From Pseudomonadota bacterium (GTDB lineage: Bacteria > Pseudomonadota > Gammaproteobacteria > Burkholderiales > Thiobacillaceae), in the NCBI GenBank assembly GCA_030684775.1, contig JAUXXW010000062.1:1-38820 (forward strand): a stretch of 38,820 bases of DNA, in the 5' to 3' direction. Of the stretch, positions 35,475 through 38,658 are shown in pieces (within the stretch, counting starts at the first letter, position 1; the number at the start of each line of letters is the position of its first letter). A program made the position numbers and the translations under genes. The notes below the pieces were generated by a model. It ran no database searches, was not told where the DNA came from, and saw nothing but the letters and a program-made list of their open reading frames with translations.

Positions 35475-35952
35475 ACAACTCATCGCCCGCCTGGCGGACC
35501 AGCTTTCTCCCACACTGGGGCCGGACCTGGCCCTGGTCGGCATCCACACCGGAGGTGTCTGGGTGATGGACGCCCTGGCCGAACGCCTCGGGCGTGACCT
35601 GCCGCGCGGTGTGCTCGACATCTCCTTCTACCGCGACGACTTCTCCCGCATCGGCCTGCATCCACAGGTGAAGCCCTCGGACATTCCGTTCGACATGGAA
35701 GATCGCCGCGTCCTGCTCATCGACGATGTATTGCATACCGGCCGCACCATCCGCGCGGCCATGAACATCCTGTTCGATTACGGCCGTCCGGCGTCGATTC
35801 GCCTGGCGGTGCTGGTGGACCGGGGCGGCCGGGAAATGCCGATCTGCCCGGACTTCGTCGGTGCCCATCTGGAACTGGCGGAACACGAGAACATCGCCCT
35901 CATCCGCGCCGAGGATGGCGCACTGGACTTCAAGATCAATCAACGCGCATGA
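35440..35952 (+). CDS. pyrR: PyrR bifunctional regulator / uracil phosphoribosyltransferase
   Basis: 170 residues from ATG 35440; ATG 35455 (MPLPTPEQL) is equally plausible. The PRPP loop [17 protein letters not shown] is characteristic, as are [11 protein letters not shown] and [17 protein letters not shown]. PyrR in Bacillus binds pyr mRNA; in proteobacteria the enzyme activity is clear but the control role is less so. It overlaps pyrB by ATGA (35949-35952), so it belongs to the pyrimidine synthesis operon. No attenuator-like hairpin is visible in front of pyrB because the genes overlap. Confidence 0.96.
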
Positions 35953-36899
35953 AAAACAATCTGCAACTGACCGAGGATGGCCGCCTCAAGCACCTGTTGA
36001 GCCTGGACGGCCTGCCCGCGCGCATCCTCACGCAAATCCTGGATACCGCCGCCTCCTTCGTCGCGGTGGGCGAGCGCGAAGTGAAGTCGGTGCCGCTGCT
36101 GCGCGGCAAGGCGGTGTTCAACATCTTCTTCGAGAACTCCACGCGTACCCGCACCACCTTCGAGATCGCCGCCAAGCGGCTGTCGGCGGATGTGGTCAAC
36201 CTCAACATCAACGCCTCCTCGCAGAGCAAGGGCGAGACCCTGCTCGATACCGTGGCCAACCTCTCGGCCATGCACGCCGACATGTTCGTGGTGCGCCACG
36301 CCGCCGCCGGCGCCGCCCACCTGATCGCCCGCCATGTGGCGCCGCACATCAGCGTGGTGAATGCCGGCGACGGCCGCTGCGCCCACCCCACCCAGGGCCT
36401 GCTCGACATGTTCACCATCCGCCACTTCAAGGGCGACTTCCACAATCTGCGCGTAGCCATCGTCGGCGACGTGCTGCACTCGCGTGTGGCGCGTTCGCAG
36501 ATCCACGGACTCACCACCCTGGGCTGCCCGGAAGTGCGCGTGATCGCACCGAAAACCCTGCTGCCGCGCGACGTCGGCAATCTCGGCGTGCACGTCCATC
36601 ACAACATGGAACAGGGCCTGAAGGATGTCGACGTGGTGATGATGCTGCGCCTGCAGAACGAACGTATGCAGGGCGCCCGCCTGCCCTCCGCCGGCGAGTT
36701 CTACAAACACTGGGGCCTCACCACCGAGAAACTGCGCCACGCCAAACCCGACGCCATCGTCATGCACCCCGGCCCGATGAACCGGGGCGTGGAAATCGAC
36801 TCCGAAGTCGCCGACGGCCCGCAGTCGGTGATCCTGGCGCAAGTCACTTTCGGTATCGCCGTGCGCATGGCGGTAATGAGCATATTGGCGGGGAATTGA
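35949..36899 (+). CDS. pyrB: Aspartate carbamoyltransferase catalytic subunit
   Basis: 316 residues. Carbamoyl phosphate + aspartate to carbamoyl aspartate, the first committed step of pyrimidine synthesis. Carbamoyl phosphate binding loop [13 protein letters not shown], the [12 protein letters not shown] segment, and [13 protein letters not shown] near the end. The size is normal. Related bacteria place pyrC or a pyrC-like gene directly downstream; here the next coding region is the AT-richer ATPase gene at 37055, after a 155-base gap without gene-like content. The N-terminal ATG overlaps pyrR. Confidence 0.97.
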
Positions 36900-37054
36900 T
36901 GGAATGACCCGCCACATGATCGAGAACTACATTTCGCGGCAAGATTGGCGGAATTTGTCACTGGCCTGTGTGAATTTGCATTTATTTTATTCCATGCGAC
37001 TCCGACGGTCCCTCGAAGGCCAAGTCATCCGAAACCAATCAAAGTGATCTCCTC

Positions 37055-38161
37055 ATGTTGCAACGTTTATATATTCACAATTTCAAGTGCTTTCAGAACT
37101 TTGAACTGAAGCCCGAAGGCAAGCACTCGTCTCTTCTGATTGGAAAGAACGGAGCGGGCAAGACGTCCATAGCCAAGGCATTACTGGTATTCCAAGGAAT
37201 TGGGCGTGGAATAAATCGTGTCGGCCATCTTATCGATCTAAGAGATTTTTTATCGGCGCAGACTGGATTGCCAATGCGGTTTGAGCTGGAAGTACTGATA
37301 CAAGAAAAAAAATACCATTACTCGTTGGCCCTGGAGTTGCCTGAGAAATTTAAAGAGTTAAGGGTGGTGGAAGAATGGCTGGAAGTTGAGGGCGAGCCTG
37401 TGTACGTGCGTGAACTGGCGCAGGTGTCGCTGCGGAAGGTGAATGGTACGTCGGGGGACGCACGTTTCTTGATGGACTGGCATCTTATTTCATTACCGCT
37501 GATTCAAGTGCAATCCGAGAACGACCCTGTACACATCTTCAAGACTTGGTTGGCGCAAATGGTTGTTCTCGCCCCGATTCCTCAACTCATGCTCGGGGAG
37601 TCCACAGAGGAGTCTCTATGGCCGACGACGAGGGGAGGCAATGTGGTGGATTGGTTGGCGGGCTTGCTTGGGCAATACCCGGCGGCATATACCGCAATTA
37701 CCTCCTATCTCTCCGAGGTAATGCCTGATTTGAAATATTTTAGATACGAACCTTTGGGTAAAGAAAGCAAGCGTCTTGTTGTTCACTATGCAGAGGAAGC
37801 TGGAAGCTTGTCATTGAACTTTGATGAGTTGTCAGATGGTGAGAAATGTTTCTTCCTGTGTTCAATCATCGTCGCGGCAAATCAGACTTACGGCCCTATT
37901 TTTTGCTTCTGGGATGAACCTGATAATTACCTCTCGCTCGCGGAGGTTGGGCATTTTATTCTGCATTTGCGCCGGGCTTTCGAACAGAATGGTCAGATCA
38001 TCATGACGACGCACAATGAAGAAGCGATTCGCAAGTTTTCAAACGAAAATACATGGGTGTTGAGTCGAAGAAGCCACATGGAACCCGCTCAACTTCGGCC
38101 GCTAACCGAGCTAGCCCTGAACTCTGATGTAATACAGTCGTTGTTGTGTGGCGAGTTATAA
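37055..38161 (+). CDS. ABC-type (AAA15/OLD-like) ATPase, probable sensor of a defence system
   Basis: 368 residues. N-terminal LYIHNFKCFQNFEL, Walker A LIGKNGAGKTS (residues about 29-38), a helical middle part, ABC signature LSDGEK (259-264), Walker B FCFWDEPDNYLS with Asp287-Glu288, and the H-loop MTTHNEEA with His320. This is the layout of OLD, RecF, PARIS AriA and RloA-type ATPases with no nuclease domain of its own. The nucleotide composition is much AT-richer than the rest of the window, a sign of transfer. The downstream 164-residue TOPRIM-like gene starts two bases after its stop. It probably detects phage or DNA ends and frees or activates the partner. No close named family is recognised. 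Confidence 0.88.
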   Translation: MLQRLYIHNFKCFQNFELKPEGKHSSLLIGKNGAGKTSIAKALLVFQGIGRGINRVGHLIDLRDFLSAQTGLPMRFELEVLIQEKKYHYSLALELPEKFKELRVVEEWLEVEGEPVYVRELAQVSLRKVNGTSGDARFLMDWHLISLPLIQVQSENDPVHIFKTWLAQMVVLAPIPQLMLGESTEESLWPTTRGGNVVDWLAGLLGQYPAAYTAITSYLSEVMPDLKYFRYEPLGKESKRLVVHYAEEAGSLSLNFDELSDGEKCFFLCSIIVAANQTYGPIFCFWDEPDNYLSLAEVGHFILHLRRAFEQNGQIIMTTHNEEAIRKFSNENTWVLSRRSHMEPAQLRPLTELALNSDVIQSLLCGEL

Positions 38162-38163
38162 CT

Positions 38164-38658
38164 ATGGGTATCAATGCCTATAAGCCACATGTGCTTGTGC
38201 TAGTCGAGGACAACGCAAATCGTGATATTGCCAACGGTTTTTTACTCGACCCCAATGTGAAAGCGCGCAATATTCAGGTCTTGAGTTCGTCGGGAGGATG
38301 GTCAAAAGTACGGGAAGATTTTCTCAAGACTCACGTTGATGGCCTTCGAAAATACCAAAATCGCTATCTCGTGTTGCTCATCGATTTTGATGGAAAGGTC
38401 ACAGACAGGATGGCGTATTTCCGCCAGGGCATTCCGGATGATGTCCAGGATCGGGTTTATCTGTTGGGAACGAGGAACGAACCAGAACCGCTCAAGAAGC
38501 AATATGGAGATTCGCTTGAGAATATCGGAAAAGCTCTGGCGGCAGAATGTTTTCGCGACGAAACAAAACTCTGGGCCCACGATCTATTGGCACATAACGA
38601 GAACGAACGAAAGCGCTTGAACGAACGGGTGAAGTCCATTCTGTTTTCATGTGCCTGA
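38164..38658 (+). CDS. Compact TOPRIM-like protein, probable effector of the ATPase
   Basis: 164 residues from ATG 38164. A strand pattern HVLVLVEDNANRDIANGFL with Glu15, then Gly-containing SSSGGWSKV, then YLVLLIDFDGKVTD with Asp74 and Asp76 follows the TOPRIM order (E ... G ... DxD) used by OLD nucleases, topoisomerases and primases. Then RVYLLGTRNEPEPLKK and a helical C-terminus (AHDLLAHNENERKRLNERVKSILF). It is about half as long as AriB of PARIS, and no DUF4435-like part is obvious. With the ATPase upstream it forms a two-gene unit likely to act as an abortive-infection nuclease. AT-rich like its partner. The effector role is inferred. Confidence 0.75.
   Translation: MGINAYKPHVLVLVEDNANRDIANGFLLDPNVKARNIQVLSSSGGWSKVREDFLKTHVDGLRKYQNRYLVLLIDFDGKVTDRMAYFRQGIPDDVQDRVYLLGTRNEPEPLKKQYGDSLENIGKALAAECFRDETKLWAHDLLAHNENERKRLNERVKSILFSCA

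Follow-up and report, generated by a model that had tools for sequence, protein, structure and literature searches.

The last two genes of the window, by which we mean the whole stretch of 38,820 nucleotides that was analyzed, encode an ABC-type ATPase and a small protein, both intact and both on the + strand downstream of pyrB (Table 1). The pair is a real conserved module whose small partner is unnamed in Pfam, NCBIfam, PADLOC and PHROGs. In our judgement, the pair is probably a compact two-gene phage-defence module, in which the ATPase would guard a minimal TOPRIM nuclease that is triggered by infection and harms the cell. The pairing of an ATPase with a TOPRIM protein is already known; the new element is the family of the small partner.

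Table 1. Features of the gene pair and of its left flank, in window coordinates.
Feature	Position	Strand	Remarks
pyrB (aspartate carbamoyltransferase), left flank of the insertion site	35949..36899	+	71-99% identity, best match in each of 30 relatives
ABC-type ATPase gene, 368 aa and stop	37055..38161	+	AAA_21, SMC_N and AAA_15 Pfam matches, all exceeding cut-offs; model pLDDT 83
Walker A GKNGAGKT, residues 30-37 (G30-T37)	37142..37165	+	G30, N32, G33, G35 and K36 invariant, 59 rows
ABC signature LSDGEK, residues 259-264	37829..37846	+	L259, G262, E263 and K264 invariant, 59 rows
Walker B Asp287-Glu288	37913..37918	+	invariant, 59 rows
Switch His320	38012..38014	+	invariant, 59 rows
Small TOPRIM-like protein gene, 164 aa and stop	38164..38658	+	directly 3' of the ATPase in 76/80 loci; model pLDDT 93.3
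Glu15, predicted catalytic, right after strand 9-14	38206..38208	+	68/68 rows
Asp74-Phe75-Asp76, predicted metal ligands, end of strand 67-74	38383..38391	+	D74 68/68, D76 67/68

Composition and insertion site of the gene pair

The initial annotation of this DNA had placed the ATPase after pyrB and a 164-residue protein two bases behind the ATPase, and had described both genes as AT-richer than their neighbours. The coordinates agreed with this arrangement, with two bases between the ATPase stop and the ATG of the small protein, and the contig (and the window with it) ended 162 bases past the pair. The G+C content of the pair was 0.478, compared with a mean of 0.641 (sd 0.019, minimum 0.603) for 177 overlapping 1.6-kb stretches from the rest of the window. 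The third-position G+C fell from 0.88 in pyrB to 0.54 in the ATPase gene and 0.51 in the small-protein gene. The base composition of the pair is foreign. A promoter and terminator scan found nothing above chance.

We compared the region 3' of pyrB in 18 congeners (other species of the window's genus). In 13 of them pyrC was located 3' of pyrB within 2 to 468 bases, and in 12 of 12 same-order relatives pyrC followed pyrB at -1 to 61 bases. Four congeners (G793, G785, G794 and G782) had different AT-rich genes in the slot after pyrB, and in G787 the contig was cut inside pyrB. In G793 and G785, genes for a methyltransferase and a restriction enzyme preceded pyrC, while a methyltransferase in G794 and a different restriction enzyme in G782 were each followed by the contig end. 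PADLOC matched the G785 methyltransferase at 9.6e-86, by similarity to which the G793 and G794 methyltransferases were assigned, and matched the type II enzymes of G785, G793 and G782 at 1.1e-96, 3e-97 and 8.1e-38, respectively. The pyrB-pyrC junction (window 36900-37054 and congener loci L230, L231, L232 and L233) is an insertion slot in the genus, occupied in different species by two different type II restriction cassettes and, in one species, by the pair. That the slot is common to type II restriction-modification genes favours a defence role of the pair.

A further small insert was seen in G788, where pyrB and pyrC are 468 bases apart and an 85-aa reading frame lies between them (L235:4525-4782). 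In the window's own genome, pyrC starts at base 164 of contig C66, and immediately 5' of it, at the start of that contig (L236:1-154), is the end of an IS481-family transposase. This transposase probably explains why the contig breaks off after the pair. The likely order in the genome, with the contig join inferred, is pyrB, ATPase, small protein, insertion element and pyrC.

Sequence and predicted fold of the two proteins

The ATPase motifs named in the initial annotation were all present, and K36, D287, E288 and H320 showed no variation across 59 aligned ATPases (the window ATPase and 58 of the best 80 loci described below). At E 1, the window ATPase matched 124 PADLOC models, of which AbiLi was the best (4.6e-23), with HEC-01A (1e-20), mad3 (1.2e-18) and AriA (1.5e-17) among the further matches listed. 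The PDB fold matches of the ATPase model were PtuA, Rad50 and SMC heads, and the one PDB sequence match was PtuA, which was also a top fold match.

The small protein of the window had no match in NCBIfam or PADLOC at E 1 or in PHROGs at 0.1, and no accepted match in Pfam, in which one irrelevant match appeared at 0.053; its best PDB sequence match had an E of 0.45. We aligned 68 small proteins, from 66 of the best 80 loci, the window and Kovacikia, with 14 loci excluded as broken, cut, masked, absent or near-identical. In a PADLOC scan of the 68 members, HEC-01B models weakly matched 7, 6, 2 and 1 members (best E 4.3e-4) and RT-Toprim models weakly matched 2 and 1, against a background of unrelated models at 0.004 and above. 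In the Pfam scan, one of the 68 weakly matched DUF3226 (0.053). The earlier opinion that the system fits no nameable family held for the small protein in all four libraries, with some members weakly tied to HEC-01.

The proposed TOPRIM-like residues Glu15, Asp74 and Asp76 were found and were almost without exception conserved (Table 1). All 68 rows keep L13, E15, D16, F26, G45, W46, D74, F75, R82, E108, G122, L125, C129, W137, N145 and R151. A strongly conserved C-terminal stretch (window 38569-38646, consensus LWGHxLLKHNxxELxRMIxSVKPFLF) is distant in sequence from the predicted site, and may serve for docking on the ATPase or for substrate binding.

In the TOPRIM arrangement, strands alternate with helices, a Glu follows strand 1 and a DxD follows strand 3. 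The model of the small protein (pTM 0.87) also alternates strands and helices, in the predicted order E9-14, H17-26, E37-39, H46-63, E67-74, H79-89 and E98-103, with Glu15 after strand 1 and the DxD closing the third strand. Model and alignment together give the TOPRIM order of site and secondary structure. A fold search of the PDB returned no match at E 0.001, generic alpha-beta folds being at the top and topoisomerase II at rank 30. In a fold search of viral models, 16 of the first 50 matches had primase, TOPRIM, topoisomerase or RloB-like names, and the TOPRIM-type matches included ranks 1, 2, 4, 7 and 11-14, all at E 0.0088 or worse.

Profile comparison of the small-protein family with 15 HEC-01B-type, 8 RloB and 11 OLD TOPRIM sequences gave probabilities below 1%, whereas the top scorer among 100 unrelated control proteins reached 7.2%. 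A direct profile search of the ORFs of HEC-01B, RloB and OLD loci gave as its best match an RloB fragment at E 0.062 over residues 8-85. The small protein is predicted to have a TOPRIM-like fold because the model, the site residues and the viral fold list combine in its favour, and no single score suffices. The TOPRIM-like character suggested at the outset therefore stands as a structural prediction from strand order, site and viral fold list, whereas a sequence tie to the HEC-01B, RloB or OLD TOPRIM sets did not emerge.

Recurrence, decay and neighbours of the pair

An alignment search of genome contigs with the ATPase found 194 relatives, of which the best 80 were retained. By their record titles, these 80 represented 53 Cyanobacteriota, 10 Pseudomonadota, 8 Thermodesulfobacteriota, 6 Chlorobiota, 1 Calditrichota, 1 Acidobacteriota and 1 unassigned, six phyla in all. 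A small-protein match was found 3' of the ATPase on the same strand in 76 of these best 80 of 194. Single-sequence scans of viral and genome contigs with the small protein gave no matches. Among 69 of 83 loci scored for spacing (5 had no partner match and 9 were omitted for broken or unclear starts), the two genes overlapped by 4 bases in 61, were 2 bases apart in 4 and overlapped by 10 or 14 bases in 4. The distances among the ATPases and among the small proteins were correlated over 52 loci (r 0.79), and none of 999 permutations was as high, the highest reaching 0.38. Since the gene order recurs in 76 of the best 80 and the distances correlate, the pairing is not due to chance. A quick tree of the 59 ATPase rows showed partial grouping by phylum, with ten label changes against a minimum of five; few deep branches were well supported, and transfer of the pair between phyla is therefore suggested only.

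The small protein was missing from four of the 80 loci, at a contig end in L069, in a masked stretch in L075 and as true absences in L063 and L082, whose genomes had no copy elsewhere in a search of 22 genomes, 20 of which matched. Damage among the 76 pair loci comprised a nonsense mutation (L013), a frameshift (L048), a missing N-terminus (L084) and breakage of both genes (L042), in addition to ATPase stops in L068 and L070, masked sequence in L050, a frame lost near a contig end in L072 and a cut by the contig end in L080. In L042 (9107-9700), from a Hormoscilla relative, unrelated sequence interrupts the small gene after residue 29. The ATPases of L070 (8001-9149) and L068 (5074-6195) have in-frame stops, one with an inserted stretch, next to intact small genes; barring assembly errors, this argues against survival strictly depending on the ATPase. 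The small gene alone was lost or broken in 7 cases (L004, L013, L048, L063, L082, L084 and L118) and the ATPase alone in 3 (L068, L070 and L116), a tally that leaves out L072 and whose asymmetry carries no weight because ATPase-based locus finding favours intact ATPases.

A profile of 67 small proteins was searched against 388 genomes from the class of an Anabaena. It matched 34 genomes including the centre, 6 of them only as pieces. Copies covering most of the model numbered 28, and ATPase sequence adjoined 28 of 28, in a search made without the ATPase. Within these 28, the contig cuts the ATPase in L107 and L109, the ATPase of L116 is without its first 163 residues, and L097 is the same match as L070, with its ATPase stop. 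Two partial copies were L117, at a contig edge without the ATPase, and L118, in which an intact ATPase adjoins only the final third of the small gene. The four remaining matches were fragmentary: two retained remnants of both genes, one lay at the end of a contig and one lacked the ATPase. Co-occurrence of homologues, on which the initial annotation had made its proposal depend, was thus seen from the side of either gene.

Elsewhere the family was sporadic. It was found in 1 of 23 genomes of the window's genus and, by single-sequence search, in 1 of 369 genomes of its class, in both cases the window's own, and in 1 of 395 genomes of the phylum of Desulfamplus, namely the centre genome itself. 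Neither 50,697 phage records nor two viral-contig scans gave a match. The ATPase matched 2 of 72,556 plasmid records at E 1e-5; plasmid pA of Kovacikia minuta carries the pair (50% and 55% identity), and a Dolichospermum plasmid, typed as conjugative, carries an ATPase copy with the small gene lost. The same two genes lie upstream of the pair in eight genomes of Microcoleus and Tychonema type, which looks like vertical inheritance there.

We also compared 138 ORFs near the pair at 20 loci (17 cyanobacterial) with controls from 20 distant stretches of the same contigs, where 112 of 114 ORFs were kept after two giant ones had been dropped. At E 1e-12, the largest membership of any single PADLOC family was 4 of 138 ORFs near the pair and 6 of 112 controls. 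In total, 177 PADLOC models were matched near the pair against 54 in the controls, a difference that is weak because the models are redundant (dozens per ATPase; 25 families listed) and two PtuA-like neighbours supply many of them. Two of the 138 neighbours match PtuA models, and ABC-type ATPase genes upstream of the pair at L053:5818-7161 and L038:5630-6718 are candidates for them. Nine large or adjacent neighbours, scanned singly at E 1e-12, gave only mad3/mad8 (L081) and PycC (L053). The commonest Pfam families near the pair at the 20 loci were glycosyltransferases, AAA and GTPase types. For the proposed recurrence in defence islands, PADLOC and Pfam gave no clear excess of defence families over the same-contig controls, in a test that is weak both ways.

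Proposed function and comparison with known systems

The defence reading starts from the direct results, which are the pair and its conservation, the operon overlap, the residues of the site, the fold prediction and the restriction-modification slot; complex formation, the trigger, nuclease activity, the substrate and the abortive outcome are the steps that we infer. The ATPase, with its OLD/PtuA/Rad50-type head, would be co-produced with the small protein and bind it. It would sense infection and, on this trigger, would release or activate the small protein, in which Glu15 and Asp74/Asp76 would hold metal ions for the cutting of nucleic acid. Because the domain stands alone, we would guess by analogy that RNA, perhaps tRNA, is a slightly likelier substrate than DNA. 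Phage growth would be halted through harm to the cell. That the ATPase may hold or build the nuclease complex and free it upon infection is suggested by analogy with PARIS, as described in PMC12409363.

The patchy spread of the pair (34/388, 1/23 and 1/369 genomes) counts for the defence reading, while the stable upstream genes in the eight Microcoleus-type genomes and the lack of phage and viral matches count against it. The compact two-gene defence system first proposed gained from the shared restriction-modification slot and lost from the lack of a clear defence-gene excess near the 20 loci. We propose more tentatively, with slightly more doubt than confidence, that the small protein could be a new stand-alone family of TOPRIM nucleases, one of the smallest known to be linked to an ABC ATPase, and that the pair could be an unreported phage defence that has its centre in Cyanobacteriota and has been passed on to other phyla, the ATPase restraining the nuclease until infection. 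If this is true, the pair would offer a minimal system for studying guard control, with 164 residues in the nuclease and 368 in its guard. A family unnamed in four libraries and present in about one in eleven sampled cyanobacterial genomes would also fill an annotation gap.

Alternatively, the pair may be an addiction or stress module that retains itself in the genome with no dedicated phage sensing, the ATPase acting like an antitoxin to keep the small nuclease in check. We consider this unlikely. The tightly overlapping genes and the plasmid copies from Dolichospermum and Kovacikia would suit it, as would the 7 against 3 cases of damage to the small gene alone, counted mostly at ATPase-found loci that favour intact ATPases. 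However, the plasmid matches to the ATPase are only 2 in 72,556, intact small genes persist beside the stop-bearing ATPases of L068 and L070, and PMC12409363 and PMC12839542 describe such ABC heads as defence-system sensors.

Somewhat less likely still is a non-defence role in nucleic-acid maintenance, as a miniature Rad50/SbcCD-type repair or RNA-processing complex in mainly cyanobacterial use. The fold matches of the ATPase to Rad50 and SMC heads, the ordinary commonest neighbours such as glycosyltransferases and the stable upstream genes of the eight Microcoleus-type genomes are consistent with such a role, but the patchy presence in the cyanobacterial class and sporadic presence elsewhere (1/23 in the genus, 1/395 in the Desulfamplus phylum), the decay repeated across loci and the foreign composition and restriction-modification slot in the window argue against it. 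It is improbable that the small protein is a Rossmann-like regulator or ligand-binding subunit with other uses for its acidic residues, since the generic alpha-beta folds that lead the PDB search and the lack of a detectable sequence tie to TOPRIM families have to be set against a conserved Glu and DxD placed where a TOPRIM site would have them, a viral fold list rich in TOPRIM proteins, and the weak HEC-01B and RT-Toprim matches in a scan in which unrelated models reach 0.004.

The literature searched held no description of this ATPase/small-protein pair. Krishnan and colleagues reportedly made an earlier classification of ABC ATPases, which may already list such a pair. Systems of this kind are already known, since OLD ABC ATPases linked to TOPRIM had previously been listed as conflict systems (PMC12839542). 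PMC12409363 describes AriA of PARIS as the sensor and AriB as a two-metal TOPRIM nuclease that cleaves tRNA, with AbiL (TOPRIM with ABC ATPase) and MADS as further pairings of this sort. According to PMC10568477, both domains share one protein in OLD classes 1-3, and PARIS is the split case.

The pair resembles PARIS in its adjacent genes for an ABC ATPase and a TOPRIM-type protein and in its acidic TOPRIM site, but its AriA match ranks below AbiLi, HEC-01A and mad3 and is no better than that to several other defence ATPases. PADLOC, which we take to contain an AriB model, gave no AriB-named family at E 1 for the window's small protein or among the 68 members, and the small protein here has only 164 aa. 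PARIS is further characterized by activation through a phage anti-restriction protein and by the cleavage of tRNA.

HEC-01, a candidate system in PADLOC, is similar in that HEC-01A matches the ATPase over residues 2-339, with no curated cut-off and with AbiLi scoring better, and in that two HEC-01B models weakly match 7 and 6 of the 68 small proteins, the window's own not being among them. When the family ATPase profile was ranked on the ORFs of 44 loci around HEC-01B, RloB and OLD matches, it scored best on ATPases of about 400 aa beside weak HEC-01B matches (3e-13 and down), while OLD ATPases reached 7e-10 at best and those beside full RloB matches 1e-6 at best. However, these best-scoring ATPases adjoin weak HEC-01B genes (about 1e-11 to 1e-5) and not the four strong ones, and the 15 HEC-01B-type proteins (181-210 aa) have no profile similarity to the small-protein family.

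The likeness to AbiL and RloAB lies in the AbiLi match, the best of the 124, which aligns query residues 1-355 with profile positions 49-266 with long gaps. In contrast, the window's small protein has no Pfam RloB (PF13707) match and no PADLOC match at E 1, RloB is absent among the 25 listed of 30 Pfam families for the 68 members, and the 8 RloB proteins were negative by profile. The nucleases of OLD, Gabija (GajA) and retron-Eco8 share the ABC head and TOPRIM chemistry, but here the two parts are separate chains, in the window and in 76 of the best 80 of 194 relatives. PtuA of Septu and of the retron PtuA-PtuB systems matches the ATPase by PDB sequence and fold. PtuB is an HNH nuclease, as PDB match titles also state, whereas the partner here is TOPRIM-like in the model and has no HNH match at E 1. 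The best reading, by analogy, is that the pair would work like PARIS or AbiL and is to be placed in neither.
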